Shown here one piece after another: positions 36,746 to 57,528 of a DNA stretch of 64,000 nucleotides (positions are counted from its first letter, which is position 1; each line of letters begins with the position of its first letter). Where the stretch lies: positions 1-64,000 of the forward strand of contig NZ_AUAF01000007.1 of assembly GCF_000428585.1 (NCBI RefSeq), given 5' to 3'. The notes beneath the pieces were generated by a model, which saw only the letters and a list, made by a program, of their open reading frames with translations, was not told the DNA's origin and did not search any database. A program made the translations under genes and the position numbers. The stretch is from Zooshikella ganghwensis DSM 15267. Lineage in GTDB: Bacteria; Pseudomonadota; Gammaproteobacteria; Pseudomonadales; Zooshikellaceae.

Positions 36746-39163
36746 TTATGGTTGAGGTGGTGCCGCGACCAGCACTTCTCGCGAGCCATTGCTACCCATG
36801 GGGCTAACCACACCTGCTGTTTCCATTGATTCAATTATTCGAGCTGCTCGGTTATAACCGATTTTAAGTTTCCGTTGTACAGCTGAAATTGAAGCGCGGC
36901 GTGATTCTGTGACAAACGCCACTGCTTCATCATAAAGCGGGTCTTGTTCTGAGTCGCTATCCAGGCCAGCACTGAAGGCACTGCCTGCTCCGCTATCATC
37001 AACCGCTCCACTTAGAATATCCTCGAGATAATCTGGCTCAGCTCTTTGCAGCCAGTCATTCACCACCTGGTGGACCTCATCATCGGCGACAAACGCACCA
37101 TGCACCCGAATAGGGACTGCGGTTCCGGGTGGGAGATATAACATATCGCCTTGCCCAAGTAGCTGCTCTGCTCCACCCTGATCCAGAATGGTGCGGGAAT
37201 CGACCTTGGATGAGACCTGAAAGCTAATACGAGTCGGTATATTGGCTTTAATTAAGCCCGTTATCACATCTACCGAGGGTCGCTGAGTTGCCAAAATCAT
37301 ATGAATTCCCGCAGCCCTGGCTTTCTGTGCCAGTCGAGCAATCAGCTCTTCGACCTTTTTGCCTACTATCATCATCATGTCAGCAAATTCATCAATAACG
37401 ATGACAATAAAGGGCAAAGTCTCTAAGACTTGAGGTTCTTCACCTTCAATATTTTCATGAAACGGGTCAAGTAAAGGCTCGTCTTTGGCCTTAGCTTCTT
37501 TAATCTTGCGGTTGAAGCCTGCAATGTTGCGAACCCCCATGGCCGCCATAAGCTTATAGCGGCGCTCCATTTCGGCCACACACCAGCGTAAGGCGTTGGC
37601 GGCCTCCTTCATGTCAGTCACAACGGGAGCCAGTAAGTGTGGTATACCCTCATACACTGATAACTCAAGCATTTTAGGGTCAACCATGATGAGGCGAACT
37701 TCTTCAGGGCTGGCTTTAAACAGCATACTGAGCAACATACTGTTGACCCCGACTGATTTACCTGAGCCTGTTGTACCTGCCACGAGCAGGTGAGGCATTT
37801 TGGCAAGGTCAACGACTACCGGCAGACCTGCGATATCATGGCCTAGTGCCAGACTAAGCGGTGATTTAGCATCAGCATAGGCTTCAGAGTTAATGACTTC
37901 ACTGAAGTACACAACTTCACGATCTTCATTGGGAATCTCAATACCCACCACAGATTTGCCTGGAATGACCTCCACGACACGGACACTGATAACCGCTAGG
38001 GAGCGCGCTAAATCTTTTGCCAGGTTGGAAATTTTGCTGACTTTAACTCCTGGAGCGGGTTGAATTTCAAACCGAGTAATGACGGGACCTGGGTGAACAG
38101 CAACGACCTCTGCAATAACGCCAAAGTCTTTTAGGCGGTCTTCCAGTAAGCGAGAAAGCAGTTCTAGTGTTTCAGGCGAAAAGCCTCGCTCTACTGATTT
38201 ATCAGGCTCATTTAACAAGGAAACTTCAGGGAGCGAACCGTCACTTTTCCCTTGGTAGCGGACTTGTCGGCGCTGTTTGGGTTGAGATATCTTGGGTGGG
38301 CTGGATACCGCTAACTCAGTAGTGGGTTCCTCAGCAGCCAGGGTTTGGGTTGAAGCCTGGTACACCAAGTCAGCCTCTGGTGCTGAGAGCAGTAATGGGT
38401 CCTGCCGCTTTTGACTTGCTTTTTTGCGACGCGGCTGGGATGCGGTTGCAGCTTGTCTTTGTGCCCTTCCCTCCCAATAACGTTGCCACTGACTAATCAT
38501 TAGGCGACCAACATGGGCTAGCGCACCAAAAAAGTCCAAGGTCACTTTGCCCAAAAGGTCCATAAAGAGAAACCAGGATAGGTCTGTGGCAATGGTGAAC
38601 CCAAATAGGAAAAGTGAGAGCAGTAAGAGGGTTGAGCCAATGGTATTGAACAAAGGCATGGTTTCAGCAATCAGCAAGTTACCTAGAATACCACCCGCAG
38701 TGGCCGGCATTTCTGCTGCATACTCAGTAAAATGCAAGGTTGCTAAGCCTGCTCCACAAATAATACTGATCCCTAAGCCGGTCAGTCGTAGCGCCCAAAT
38801 CGGCAGTCTGAACTGCAACGGGTCGTGACGTTTGCGTAATAACTGAATGGCCATAAACCCAATAAAAAAGGGAAACAGGAAGGCAAAGTAGCCAATAAAC
38901 CAAAGTAAAAGGTCGGCTACCCAAGCTCCACTGCGTCCAACTAAGTTATGAACAGCACCATTGGTCTGCCCGGTATGGGACCAACCAGGATCTGCAGGGC
39001 TATATGAAAAGAGTGCCAGTATTAGATAAATACAGCTAGCAATTAACGCTATCAGCAAACCCTCACGAAGGCGCATGCCAATATGCTGGCGTGCTTGTGG
39101 GGGCGTACTTGGGGTCGTCGGAGTTTTTCTGTTACGCTTTTTAACTGTTTTTGAGCCTTTCAA
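36746..39163 (-). CDS. ftsK: DNA translocase FtsK
   Basis: An 805-residue septal translocase. Four N-terminal membrane helices (about 30-210) anchor it at the divisome. A fairly short, Gln/Pro/Ser-rich linker (about 230-320) follows. The RecA-like motor has Walker [14 protein letters not shown], Walker [13 protein letters not shown] and [20 protein letters not shown]. The C-terminal gamma winged helix (about 735-805, [25 protein letters not shown]...) reads KOPS and contacts XerD. The TTG start (39163) is preceded by AAGGT at seven bases. It pumps chromosome ends at division. Confidence 0.95.
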
Positions 39164-52693: not shown

Positions 52694-53729
52694 GGTTAGC
52701 TCTGCTACTGAAGAGCAAGTGTTATCGTTTATTGCTCACTATAGATGTGCAGGAGTTAACCATAGTGAGCAGGAAATTCTCCTCTGTCCACTACAATCAA
52801 CTATGCACGCTGACTATAGCTGGTTTTTGATTGGCGGTGATTCACCACAAGGCTTGGGGTGGTTTCACCCTGAGCTTTCTACCATTGGGATTTATTTGCC
52901 TTTTGCTGAAGAGAATGGCTCAACGTTCAAAGACTTACTTGAATACCTCATTGCTTATACCCGCGCTGCCGGTGTCAAAATGCTTAAAGCATGTACTCTG
53001 CTCCATTGGTTAAGTTATTATCAAGCTCAGGGGTTTAGCTCGCTAGCCATTGACAGCTTAGGGGTAGATGCGGCTGATTCGGAAAATGTCTTCCTTGGAT
53101 TAGATCTGGCTGCTCCCATTCCATTTGCCTCGATTCCCGATAAGCAAGGTATTGAGGTGATTCATGCTAAGTATCGTCATGACTACCAGCCTCGGGCTAT
53201 CAAGCCAGCTGCAGAAACGGTGACTGCATGTCAGCTTATTCTGGGAGAAGACAGCAAGCTGCAGGTTTGGCATAAGCAGACTGATATTATGTCAGCGCTG
53301 CTGAGCATTGTGGCTCAGGCTGATGAAATAGTGCTGATTTACTCCCCTTTGTTACAACATGAGCTTTTTGCAGATGAGTCCTTTATTCGAGAGTTCTCAA
53401 TGTTTGCTAGACGAAATCCGATTAGCCATGCGCGTATCTTGATCGATGATTGTCGCGCCATTGTCAATTATTCTCATCCATTACTGAGTCTGCAAAAAAG
53501 AATTCCCAGTCTTATAGAAATTCAACAAACTCACCCACAGTACCCTGTAGAAAGTTATGGTTATGTGTTGGTGGATCGTGTGGGCTGGTTAGAGCTGTCT
53601 GATGCCGATTTATTGATTGCTAAGGGATCATTTGCAGACCCAGGAAACGTTAAATTGCGCCAAGAAGGTTTTCAGCGTGCATGGGACAAAAGCTCTAAAC
53701 CAGCAGACTTAAGGAATATCTCATTATGA
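52680..53729 (+). CDS. GNAT-like plus PLD-like (DUF7931) two-domain protein
   Basis: A 349-residue soluble protein. Residues 1-145 look like a diverged GNAT acetyltransferase: SWFLIGGDSPQGLGWF, a helix near LLEYLIAYTRAAGVKML and LSYYQAQGFSSLAID at the end. Residues about 180-345 resemble DUF7931, a phospholipase-D-like fold, with IVLIYSPLLQHELFADE, FARRNPISHARILIDDCRAIV and ESYGYVLVDRVGWLEL, GNVKLRQEGFQRAWDKS. In Pseudomonas I recall the two parts as separate neighbouring genes in the same place, so this may be a fusion. It overlaps roxA by 14 bases and the next gene by 4, so all three are co-transcribed. Function is unknown. Confidence 0.65.
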   Translation: MMTAEVSSATEEQVLSFIAHYRCAGVNHSEQEILLCPLQSTMHADYSWFLIGGDSPQGLGWFHPELSTIGIYLPFAEENGSTFKDLLEYLIAYTRAAGVKMLKACTLLHWLSYYQAQGFSSLAIDSLGVDAADSENVFLGLDLAAPIPFASIPDKQGIEVIHAKYRHDYQPRAIKPAAETVTACQLILGEDSKLQVWHKQTDIMSALLSIVAQADEIVLIYSPLLQHELFADESFIREFSMFARRNPISHARILIDDCRAIVNYSHPLLSLQKRIPSLIEIQQTHPQYPVESYGYVLVDRVGWLELSDADLLIAKGSFADPGNVKLRQEGFQRAWDKSSKPADLRNISL

Positions 53730-54547
53730 TTCGCTTAAGATCAGCTACCTATTTGCTAGTCACTCTGTTGCTAATAAGTCGTTTATCGATAGCTGCAGCG
53801 TTGCAAACATATACCATTGACATGAGACATCGGCTGGCAGATGAGCTAGTTCCCATATTACAGCCTTTGGTGGCTCCTGGAGGGGCTGTCACGTCATACA
53901 ATAATGTTTTGATTATTAAAACAACAGCCAAGAACTTTCAACAGTTGCAGCAAACAGTAAAAAAACTGGATACGCCAATACGCCAACTCTTAATCAGTGT
54001 CAGCTCTGATTCAAGTGTGGTTTATGCCGAGCGTGGAATAGAAGCCGATGTTGATGTGCGAGTGGGTGATGTGACGATTCGAACAGGCGACCGTCATGCA
54101 GCTAGCGACCAAGTTGTTATTCATCATGGCACTCAACGCAGGCAAGATCAGGGGATACAGCAAGTGACTGCACTTGAGGGACAGGCTGCTTTTATTCAAG
54201 TAGGACAAGAGGTACCTGTACATGAACGTACCCAGTGGCCTGGGCATATTGAACAGCGCTCCTCTTATAAGAAAGTGAGCCAAGGCTTTTATGCGACGGT
54301 GAGGCTATCAGGTAATGACTTAGCTACTATTCAGCTAGAGGCTCAGAATAATCGTTTGGCTCGCAATAACTCAGGCAATATTGATATCAATTCAACCAGT
54401 ACGGTTATTCAAGCACCTATTGGGCAGTGGGTTCCTGTAGGTGGCGTTAATAATCAGGCTAATCAGCACAACTCAGGTTTGAATCAACGAGTGTATCGTA
54501 CCCGGGACCAACAGGCTCAGTTTTATATAAAGGTGGACTTTCAGTAA
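53726..54547 (+). CDS. exported secretin-N (NolW-like) domain protein
   Basis: A 273-residue exported protein with a signal peptide (SATYLLVTLLLISRLSIAAA). Next is YTIDMRHRLADELVPILQPLVAPGGAVTSYNNVLIIKTTAKNFQQLQQTVKKLD, the short-domain fold found in N-terminal parts of secretins. The remainder has beta-rich repeats (QVGQEVPVHERTQ, TVRLSGNDLATIQLEAQ) and an Asn/Gln-rich tail. It lacks the secretin pore domain, so it is not a secretin. It may be a pilotin-like or cell-envelope accessory protein. The ATG overlaps the upstream stop by four bases. Confidence 0.75.
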   Translation: MIRLRSATYLLVTLLLISRLSIAAALQTYTIDMRHRLADELVPILQPLVAPGGAVTSYNNVLIIKTTAKNFQQLQQTVKKLDTPIRQLLISVSSDSSVVYAERGIEADVDVRVGDVTIRTGDRHAASDQVVIHHGTQRRQDQGIQQVTALEGQAAFIQVGQEVPVHERTQWPGHIEQRSSYKKVSQGFYATVRLSGNDLATIQLEAQNNRLARNNSGNIDINSTSTVIQAPIGQWVPVGGVNNQANQHNSGLNQRVYRTRDQQAQFYIKVDFQ

Positions 54548-55340: not shown

Positions 55341-55666
55341 ATGCCAACAAGTAAATCAGGTTGCGTGAGCTGGGTGAGTATTATTCAAATCGATATCCAT
55401 AGTAAAGCCGCTGTCGCCTCTTCTTTACACTTCGATAAAAGATAATCTGAAAATAATTATTTGTAATTTAATTATATTTTCATATGCCAATTTTTTTTAA
55501 CCAAAAAAATCTTAAAAATCATTGGATTACGATGAGCGGTATTTGGGAGTATGATTTGTTTCGCGGAGTTTGTGGGACTTAATTCAAATTAAAAATTTTT
55601 ACAGTCTCGTTACCTTAATATGAAGTTTTAAGATTAAGTATTTGTTATAAATATAAAAAATAATTT
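55341..55666. other. AT-rich region upstream of sigma-54-type promoter
   Basis: About 330 bases without a gene. It precedes the -24/-12 element and is where an enhancer-binding activator would bind. No palindromic upstream site could be settled by eye. Confidence 0.4.
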
Positions 55667-55682
55667 TGGCATCAATGTTGCT
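55667..55682 (+). promoter_or_regulatory. sigma-54 (RpoN) -24/-12 promoter of the PEP-CTERM-like gene
   Basis: TGGCATCAATGTTGCT fits TGGCAC-N5-TTGCW with a single mismatch (T for C at the sixth base), and the GG and GC doublets have exact spacing. The predicted transcript starts about 55693-55695, giving a leader of about 83 bases that contains a perfect hairpin. PEP-CTERM genes in other bacteria are known to be under RpoN with the PrsK/PrsR pair, so the combination is meaningful. The promoter call is from consensus only. Confidence 0.75.
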
Positions 55683-55742
55683 AAATAGTGTCTGCGTTTT
55701 TACATGCGTTTATTCAATATGCATGAAGTTTGGATTAGTAGT

Positions 55743-55760
55743 ATGCACGACGGCGTGCAT
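55743..55760 (+). promoter_or_regulatory. leader hairpin before the PEP-CTERM-like gene
   Basis: ATGCACG-ACGG-CGTGCAT is a perfect seven-base stem with a four-base loop. It ends five bases before the ribosome site (GGAGA) of the 55777 gene. It could affect translation or mRNA stability. No T-tract suitable for termination is present. Confidence 0.55.
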
Positions 55761-55776
55761 TTTATGGAGAGTTATA

Positions 55777-56553
55777 ATGAATAAATTAGCCGCACTATTT
55801 GGAACTGCAGTAGTAGCTCTATCTTCACAAGTAATGGCTTCCCCCCTCGACGCAACGAATATTACCGTTTTTGATGGACAGGGTTCTGGTTCAGGTTGGT
55901 ATGGTACTCAAGAAGATAATGAGGTAGAACCACGCAATGGTTATGGACAGAAGTGGGACTTAGAAGGATTTTTCCAGAAAGGAAATAATGTCAGCATTGT
56001 GAGTGGTTACAACCTGAAAAATGGCGAACAACAAGGCGGTCACCACTGGACTTCTGGCGATATTTTTATCGATATTAATAACGATGTAACCCGTGGCAGT
56101 AGTACATGGTCAAATGGTAATAAAACCGTTAAAAACACTTACGGCTTTGACTATGTATTGGATGTTAACTGGTCTAACCTGACATATGATATTGTTAAGT
56201 TAGATGCAAACTCTTATACAAAAACTTCCTACTTTAAAAATAACCAAGCCGCTAATCCATGGTTGTATGCAGGTGGTGGTGATGTAATCGGTAATGGTGC
56301 TTTCTCTTTAAGCTCACTGACCGACGCCGAGTCAGGTTTCCTAGGTGGAAAACACTACTATGCTAATGGTTTTGATTTAAGCTTTTTAGGTGAAAATGCT
56401 GACTTCAATTTACACTTTACTATGCAGTGCGGTAATGATGACCTCCGTGGTAAAGGTAAAACACCAACTACGCCCGTTCCTGTTCCTTCTGTAGCTGCTT
56501 TAATGGGTATTGGTTTACTCGCTTTAGGTCGTGCACGTCGTCGTAAAAAGTAA
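55777..56553 (+). CDS. secreted protein with PEP-CTERM-like sorting tail
   Basis: A 258-residue exported protein. The ATG follows GGAGA at good spacing; an upstream in-frame ATG-less extension overlaps the promoter and is rejected. A signal peptide (MNKLAALFGTAVVALSSQVMA) precedes a beta-rich, Asn/Gly/Ser/Tyr-rich domain with SGDIFIDINNDVTRG, GFDYVLDVNW and NADFNLHFTMQCGNDDL. The C-terminus is PVPVPSVAALMGIGLLALGRARRRKK: a P-x-P-S motif, hydrophobic helix and Arg/Lys tail. This is the layout of PEP-CTERM signals cleaved by exosortase, with Val in place of Glu. No exosortase gene is in the window. A terminator follows. Confidence 0.82.
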   Translation: MNKLAALFGTAVVALSSQVMASPLDATNITVFDGQGSGSGWYGTQEDNEVEPRNGYGQKWDLEGFFQKGNNVSIVSGYNLKNGEQQGGHHWTSGDIFIDINNDVTRGSSTWSNGNKTVKNTYGFDYVLDVNWSNLTYDIVKLDANSYTKTSYFKNNQAANPWLYAGGGDVIGNGAFSLSSLTDAESGFLGGKHYYANGFDLSFLGENADFNLHFTMQCGNDDLRGKGKTPTTPVPVPSVAALMGIGLLALGRARRRKK

Positions 56554-56592
56554 GTAGCGTGTAGTAATCCATGAACGATATGGGTTAGACCG

Positions 56593-56623
56593 AAAAAGCC
56601 TTGCATTTATGCAAGGCTTTTTT
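56593..56623 (+). terminator. intrinsic terminator of the PEP-CTERM-like gene
   Basis: AAAAGCCTTGCAT (56594-56606) and ATGCAAGGCTTTT (56609-56621) form a perfect 13-bp stem around a TT turn, and the T run extends to 56623. It could also end the opposite-strand transcript. Confidence 0.88.
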
Positions 56624-56808
56624 AGTTTCTATCTATAAAAAAGGAAGTGTTCTGAAGCAGATTTATTTGATACCTTTTTGGGGTGGATAAGAAATATTTA
56701 CATGATTTTCTATTTTAGAGCTTTTCATGAACTAATCATGCCGGTAGTTTTTTACACTTACAAATACTCGCTTAAAATATCATTGTATAATGTATCACTA
56801 ATTTGTCC

Positions 56809-57528
56809 TTATGCTTTCTTCACTTCGTCTATACCTTTCTGTAACTGATTAATTAAGTCGTCAGACGTTTTTTTGCTAAAGGCATAAAACAGCTCAGCTT
56901 CTTTGAGTGTGTAGACTGTACTGAAGTCACTATTTTGCAAGCCATTTTTTTTGATAAACCAACGTGCGACATTTTCTTCATAGGCCCATAAGTCTACTCG
57001 ACCAGTGTTAAGTTTTTTTACCAATGAGTCAGCATTTGATGATGGTTTGATTGAAGCGTCAGGTACGCCAAGCGCTTTTACCAGCTGTTCACCAACATCG
57101 TCACGAATAGTGCCTACGGTATACTTAGCGATATCTTCAGGGGTATTGATTTTTACGTCGTTGTCGTTTTTAGCAAGCAAAACGATTTTAGTTTTGGCGA
57201 TGGGTCCTGCCCATTTAAAGAGAGGTTCTCGTTCTTTAGTACGTGTTGTGGCGAACAGAACATGATTTGGTTCTTCAAGAGTAGCTCGGTACCCCCTTGC
57301 CCAAGGGTAAACTTTGATTTGGCCTCTTTTTACTGGAGAACCTGCTTTGTTAGATGCAGCAATAAGCAAGTCGACAGCAATGCCTTTTAATAGGCCTGAT
57401 GTTTCAAAGTTATAAGGTGGGTATGATTCAGTAATAAACGTTGGTTTATTCAGCTCATTACCATACGATAGTGAACTTAAAAATAATGATAATACTAATG
57501 TTGTAATAGCACCTTTGATATGGAACAT
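56809..57528 (-). CDS. periplasmic substrate-binding protein (SBP_bac_3 family)
   Basis: A 239-residue exported protein with signal peptide MFHIKGAITTLVLSLFLSSLSYG. The SBP_bac_3 fold is shown by FITESYPPYNFETSGLLKGIAVDLLIAASNKAGS, VYPWARGYRATLEE, LFATTRTKEREPLFKWAGPI, TVGTIRDDVGEQLV and VDLWAYEENVARWFIKK. This type often lies outside ABC operons and is thought to bind amino acids or other small solutes. No permease is adjacent. It is related in type, but not closely in sequence, to the interrupted gene at 24430. Confidence 0.88.
   Translation of the reverse strand: MFHIKGAITTLVLSLFLSSLSYGNELNKPTFITESYPPYNFETSGLLKGIAVDLLIAASNKAGSPVKRGQIKVYPWARGYRATLEEPNHVLFATTRTKEREPLFKWAGPIAKTKIVLLAKNDNDVKINTPEDIAKYTVGTIRDDVGEQLVKALGVPDASIKPSSNADSLVKKLNTGRVDLWAYEENVARWFIKKNGLQNSDFSTVYTLKEAELFYAFSKKTSDDLINQLQKGIDEVKKA

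Follow-up and report, generated by a model that had tools for sequence, protein, structure and literature searches.

The closest described relative of the locus analysed here is the PEP-CTERM/EpsH (XrtA) system. In the excerpts of Haft et al. 2006 (PMC1569441) drawn on here, a PEP-CTERM box stands upstream of proteobacterial PEP-CTERM genes and has two parts: motif 1, which is 17 nt long with TTTACA at its end, and motif 2, a -24(GG)/-12(GC) element whose mean distance to the start codon is 71 nt (S.D. 38.5), with a spacer of 62.8 +/- 10.6 nt between them. According to the same excerpts the box precedes 99 of 167 proteobacterial PEP-CTERM genes and is tied to PrsK, PrsR and PrsT. A further example comes from Aquincola tertiaricarbonis, where the available part of PMC9850573 describes a PEP-CTERM gene whose start has been mapped, which carries TGGCAC/CTGCTT and is RpoN1-dependent, and reports that the mutant was not restored by prsK-prsR on a plasmid.

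The locus described here (Table 1) belongs to this known system: it is an ordinary PEP-CTERM surface-protein gene with a standard tail and a control switch that has already been described. It lies in a window of 64,000 nt, positions 1 to 64,000 of contig NZ_AUAF01000007.1 of Zooshikella ganghwensis DSM 15267. Compared with the PEP-CTERM/EpsH system, as far as the excerpts of PMC1569441 describe it, the locus is alike in its tail, its apparent one-gene unit and its long upstream region, in the combination of the TTTACA end of motif 1, spacer and -24/-12 element, and in the partner genes found in the genome. It differs in having Val instead of Glu in P-x-P, which is common in these genomes, in a motif 1 without the 5' half and in the presence of a leader hairpin. 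The PEP-CTERM box is thus extended to the Zooshikella group while the picture of the system is unchanged. No paper that mentions Zooshikella together with PEP-CTERM was found in open-licence full texts.

Two further described families resemble the protein in part. The flocculation protein PepA (NF033554; pepA of Aquincola in the available part of PMC9850573) shares the RpoN-type promoter and an exported PEP-CTERM protein with the locus but differs in genomic position, the Zooshikella gene not being on the contig of prsT. The PepA model matches residues 95-258 weakly, with 14.1 bits against a cut-off of 80, and the protein is therefore not a PepA member. All seven members of its own family are matched by NF033554 at E up to 10. 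Such a match says little because weak matches to the model (E up to 1e-5) turn up in 112 of 369 genomes from this class, with six above the cut-off and many confined to the tail. The exosortase-dependent surface protein XDP1 (NF041927) matches the last 30 residues and not the body of the protein, and the score of 22.8 bits lies far from the cut-off of 125.

Table 1. Positions of the sequence features at the PEP-CTERM locus, numbered from the first base of the window
Feature	Position	Strand	Remarks
PEP-CTERM box motif 1, presumed PrsR site	55587..55603	+	TTTACA at 55598-55603, 7/7 homologs
-24/-12 sigma-54 promoter, motif 2, TGGCATCAATGTTGCT	55667..55682	+	Kept in 7/7 homologs
5' leader, 84 nt (predicted start)	55693..55776	+	83/84 identical in the sister species
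Leader hairpin ATGCACG-ACGG-CGTGCAT	55743..55760	+	7 bp, 4-nt loop; identical in the sister species (G004)
PEP-CTERM protein gene	55777..56553	+	258 aa: signal peptide, surface domain, tail PVPVPS-helix-RARRRKK
PEP-CTERM sorting domain	56476..56547	+	TIGR02595, 21.5 bits (17.1 in a second profile search), cut-off 16
Terminator-like hairpin	56593..56622	+	13-bp stem ending in a T run

The gene, its product and its relatives

The start codon of the protein is the ATG at 55777. Its frame has no stop codon back to about 55657, and an earlier start was ruled out because the homologs share an M-N/M-K start and a ribosome site and because the frame is closed just upstream in one of the homologs (G003). 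The initial annotation had treated 55667-56553 as one unit. All of its elements are present, but 55667 is the start of the promoter and not of the gene. As that annotation also proposed, the product has the build of an exported protein ending in PxPS, a helix and an Arg/Lys end. Judged by eye, the N-terminal signal peptide is MNKLAALFGTAVVALSSQVMA, and the C-terminal tail PVPVPSVAALMGIGLLALGRARRRKK consists of PVPVPS, a hydrophobic stretch and RARRRKK. The tail exceeds the cut-off of TIGR02595 narrowly in both profile searches, and with the Pfam model PF07589 it reaches 16.5 bits, about 4 bits below the cut-off of 20.7. Among the seven homologs TIGR02595 gives matches in five only (E up to 10).

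The surface domain of about 200 residues is above the cut-off of no family in the NCBIfam and Pfam profile searches, and a search of solved structures gave no relative at E up to 1. An AlphaFold model built from two sequences has a pLDDT of 27. Several stretches of the domain (WYG, SGDIF, GFDLSFLGE and TM-x-CGND) are invariant in all seven homologs. By analogy with other PEP-CTERM proteins, the 258-aa protein is likely to work at the surface or in the matrix together with the exopolysaccharide.

The protein is encoded in all five genomes of the family that were examined, in seven copies and two genera, and in the class as a whole homologs occur in 6 of 369 genomes, including its own. The copy in the sister species (G004) is 92% identical to the protein studied here, a paralog present in both species is 57-59% identical, and the other genus has one copy in each of three genomes (51-62% identical). 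These seven homologs represent at most four independent lineages.

The stem of the terminator-like hairpin and the T run after the gene suggest that it is probably its own, one-gene transcription unit. The region 53726-54547 encodes a small, 273-aa protein whose domains resemble those of secretins but which is short for a full secretin; its PilQ/GspD-like matches in NCBIfam are far below the cut-offs and its Pfam Secretin match is just above. Beyond the PEP-CTERM gene, on the opposite strand, a family-3 solute-binding protein is encoded at 56809-57528 (-).

Promoter, upstream element and partner genes

Compared by eye, the promoter TGGCATCAATGTTGCT departs from TGGCAC-N5-TTGCW at one position; it departs from TGGCACGNNNNTTGCW at two. 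Taken as a consensus match alone, it is not above chance. With up to two mismatches TGGCACGNNNNTTGCW is found 12 times in the window versus 12.07 expected, and TGGCAY-N6-TGCW once versus 1.11 expected. The latter count agrees with a reading in which the TGGC...TGCT match is an accident of the AT-rich sequence and transcription of the gene begins from a different promoter. The promoter stands above chance because of its position and its conservation: TGGCAY-N6-TGCT is located 80-105 nt upstream of the start codon in all seven homologs (94 nt upstream of the ATG at the locus itself), the flanking DNA having diverged. This conservation, the constant distance to a partner element and the enrichment of motif 2 before other PEP-CTERM genes described below make a chance match hardly credible. 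Among six distant homolog loci from five further genomes, five have, near the start, a -24/-12 site with no more than one mismatch, while the sixth (L092) has two-mismatch sites only (raw count). From the position of the -24/-12 site, transcription would start near 55693.

The upstream element of the promoter is equally conserved. In the alignment TTTTACA is found 61-63 nt from the -24 element in all seven homologs, with diverged flanks. At the locus studied here the spacer between motif 1 and motif 2 is 63 nt, and both this spacer and the 94 nt to the start agree with the box geometry given in the excerpts of PMC1569441. To judge from sequence and spacing, the two-part upstream element is very probably the published PEP-CTERM box, as those excerpts define it, a control switch already known. 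A strict composite pattern built from the homologs occurs only at this gene and its paralog in the 5.8-Mb genome, and the reversed control gave 0 matches. The sigma-54 reading of the initial annotation is supported, including the single mismatch to the RpoN consensus at a site that proves to be kept in 7/7 homologs, but the annotation missed the TTTACA element 61-63 nt upstream.

The same promoter was found before other PEP-CTERM genes, a search that had been proposed at the outset. It covered 64 tails from five genomes (60 from the main listing, two in G000 with E >0.1, one of them below the cut-off, and two homolog tails); a match in C95, which by eye resembles the middle of a membrane protein, was excluded. 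Five genes had too little DNA upstream and 59 were used, with start codons chosen by a script rule. Motif 2 with at most one mismatch precedes 24 of the 59 genes, versus 0.30 in base shuffles and 1 in the reverse complement, and motif 2 together with an exact TTTACA precedes 14 (0.01 in shuffles and 1 in the reverse complement). The 24 genes are not independent events because orthologs were counted separately. When the seven homologs are excluded the motif is still found before 17 of 52 genes. The remaining 35 of the 59 genes have no motif 2 at this threshold. Eight PepA loci were also available, of which one (L097) was excluded because a contig end cuts the locus and its frame had been misread; in the other seven motif 2 is present without mismatch in four, absent in two and represented only by two-mismatch sites in one (raw count).

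Motif 1 takes the form TGTC-N7-TTTACA before several other PEP-CTERM genes, for example as TGTCCAAAGAATTTACA. The motif at the locus is AATTAAAAATTTTTACA, that is AATT-N7-TTTACA, and in the paralog it is ATTA-N7-TTTACA; the TGTC half is absent from both. In two VPLP genomes TGTCA is found five bases further upstream. With the TGTC half missing, binding of PrsR at this gene may be weaker or differently spaced, or the gene may respond to another activator. The alternative retains RpoN but, as only half of motif 1 is kept, assigns activation to an NtrC-type regulator other than PrsR. It draws on the difference between AATTAAAAATTTTTACA and TGTCCAAAGAATTTACA and on the number of candidate regulators: the PrsR model has 12 matches in the genome at E up to 1e-50, one above the cut-off and 11 below. 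It is unlikely in view of TTTTACA, which is kept at 61-63 nt in all seven homologs amid diverged flanks and thereby reproduces the PrsR-linked geometry in the excerpts of PMC1569441. PrsR is accordingly preferred as the activator.

The partner genes of the system are present in the genome. The draft assembly comprises 414 contigs (5.8 Mb, 99.1% complete), and one exosortase match was found in it, of XrtA type, on contig C53 (340.9 bits, cut-off 208). The neighbours at this locus are an XrtA-associated amidotransferase, an ATPase, a polysaccharide deacetylase and FemAB proteins. The genes prsK (752 bits), prsR (737) and prsT (617) are consecutive on contig C28 and all above cut-off, rpoN (493 bits) is present, and PEP-CTERM tails give 17 matches, 15 of them above cut-off. 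The initial annotation had named the lack of an exosortase as a reason to abandon its reading, had suggested a search for PrsK and PrsR, and had taken the RpoN and PrsK/PrsR system as support. With XrtA, PrsK, PrsR, PrsT and RpoN all found, and the box of PMC1569441, as excerpted, at the gene, this part of the reading is supported.

The sequence parts observed at the locus are conserved and the genome has the partner genes, which suggests that the gene is probably an XrtA substrate under PrsR/RpoN control. In this course of events PrsK would sense a signal and phosphorylate PrsR, which, following the literature, would bind the TTTACA-ended site near 55587-55603 and activate RpoN polymerase at 55667-55682, so that the mRNA would begin near 55693. 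The N-terminal signal peptide would export the protein and the C-terminal helix would hold it in the inner membrane. As described for related systems, XrtA would then cleave at or near the PVPVP motif, and the cleaved protein would reach the cell surface with the exopolysaccharide of the XrtA locus. Taken as a whole, this reading of a one-gene unit encoding an XrtA substrate, with a PrsK/PrsR-activated RpoN promoter and export, cleavage and a surface fate of the product, is held with high confidence.

Variation in the P-x-P motif

The tail with PVP was originally proposed to mark a subtype, and this is not borne out. Of the 64 tails, 30 have a last P-x-P without Glu (PVP 14, PTP 6, PAP 6, PNP 2 and PLP 2), one of the PVP tails being ambiguous as it reads PEPVP, and two tails have no P-x-P. 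In the Zooshikella genome itself the last P-x-P lacks Glu in 5 of 16 tails. The relation between tail and promoter was analysed in 57 genes using the last P-x-P of each tail, two more genes being without P-x-P. Motif 2 precedes 14 of 27 non-PEP genes versus 10 of 30 PEP genes (Fisher p = 0.19), and when the seven-member family is removed the numbers are 7 of 20 versus 10 of 30 (p = 1.0). A subtype defined by the tail was consequently rejected, since about half of the tails have a P-x-P without Glu and these show no link to the promoter. Because one exosortase was found in the genome, a single enzyme presumably processes both PVP and PEP tails. The combination of a single detected XrtA-type exosortase with both PEP and PVP/PTP tails allows a direct test of which middle residues XrtA accepts. 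In the tails of L065 and L088, VHEPS replaces P-x-P and the tails are still above the TIGR02595 cut-off.

Leader and hairpin

The hairpin at 55743-55760 has no mismatch and ends 5 nt before GGAG, in agreement with the initial description of a perfect hairpin right before the ribosome site. None of 300 shuffled versions of the last 50 nt contained a 7-bp stem. In the whole window there are 44 perfect stems of at least 7 bp with loops of 3-8 nt, versus 14-18 in three base shuffles, and this excess is probably due in part to terminators. Before the 59 PEP-CTERM genes the longest stems follow the shuffles; there are three of 7 bp versus about 1.2 expected (at least 7 bp), and two of the three belong to the gene studied here and its ortholog. 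Folding of whole leaders was analysed in 28 genes with the promoter (24 from the five genomes and four of the five distant loci with a site, L094 being excluded). The mean z was -0.15, and -0.59 for the gene itself. A hairpin as a general part of PEP-CTERM genes was rejected on these grounds.

The seven-member family itself gives another result. Over the 50 nt preceding the start the mean folding z is -1.70, versus -0.49 in 52 other PEP-CTERM genes and -0.27 in 24 window genes (one-sided p = 0.005 each), in a test where the stretch was picked after the hairpin had been seen, where at most four lineages are independent and where the stems differ in sequence. Individual values are -1.91 for the gene, -1.86 for its ortholog, -2.60 and -3.00 for the paralogs, -1.93 in G001, -1.04 in G002 and +0.41 in G003. 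The proposal that the hairpin is a subtype trait thus fails as a statement about PEP-CTERM genes in general, but a leader structure, as the better folding before the start would indicate, may be a trait of this family.

A broader version of that proposal makes the PVP tail and the leader hairpin together the mark of a distinct, separately controlled PEP-CTERM subtype. The family-wide folding of the last 50 nt agrees with it, as does the hairpin itself, which is unchanged in the sister species and has a short counterpart at the equivalent place in the paralog. Nevertheless it is very unlikely, given that tails without Glu are frequent and unlinked to the promoter, that one exosortase was found in the genome, that whole leaders fold at chance, that the longest stems before PEP-CTERM genes follow the shuffles apart from the three of 7 bp, and that the stems of the homologs differ in sequence, with a positive z in G003. 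At the position of the hairpin the other homologs have different, shorter stems. An ordinary XrtA substrate gene remains the preferred reading.

The leader is highly conserved between the two sister species. It is identical at 83 of 84 positions, whereas the fourfold sites of the gene are identical at 60 of 108 (56%; Fisher p ~1e-13), and the DNA upstream of the leader is 70-72% identical. With 99% versus 56% identity, the leader may be held fixed by something. The single difference shortens a second stem and has no compensation. Among 12 PEP-CTERM ortholog pairs, out of 16 genes taken in the genome, the median leader identity is 0.92 versus 0.78 in 20 other window leaders (one-sided Mann-Whitney p = 0.049). 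This excess is weak, since 3 of the 20 controls reach at least 0.98, two of them with unusually conserved fourfold sites. The controls, which have 84 nt or more of DNA before the gene, all come from one contig and some share one intergenic stretch, and for some PEP-CTERM genes the promoter itself is inside the 84 nt compared. The 84 nt of upstream DNA are 98-99% identical in the sister species for the genes at 39163 (-), 44478 (-) and 44689 (+).

No known RNA family was found in the leader at E up to 1. Between 55300 and 56800 there are five weak matches to RNA families, all at 56563-56668 around the terminator and below the gathering scores. No papers joining PEP-CTERM, exosortase, leader and hairpin were found in open-licence full texts. 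A tentative and rather doubtful idea is that the 84-nt leader might be a cis-acting RNA element which adds post-transcriptional control to a surface protein switched by PrsR/RpoN, the family keeping structure in a changing sequence. The structures within the family range from the 7-bp stem of the gene studied here to the shorter stems of the paralog and a ribosome-site stem in two genomes of the other genus. In the latter (L035 and L036) GGAG-TAAT-CTCC precedes the start codon, and the stem would pair the ribosome site itself.
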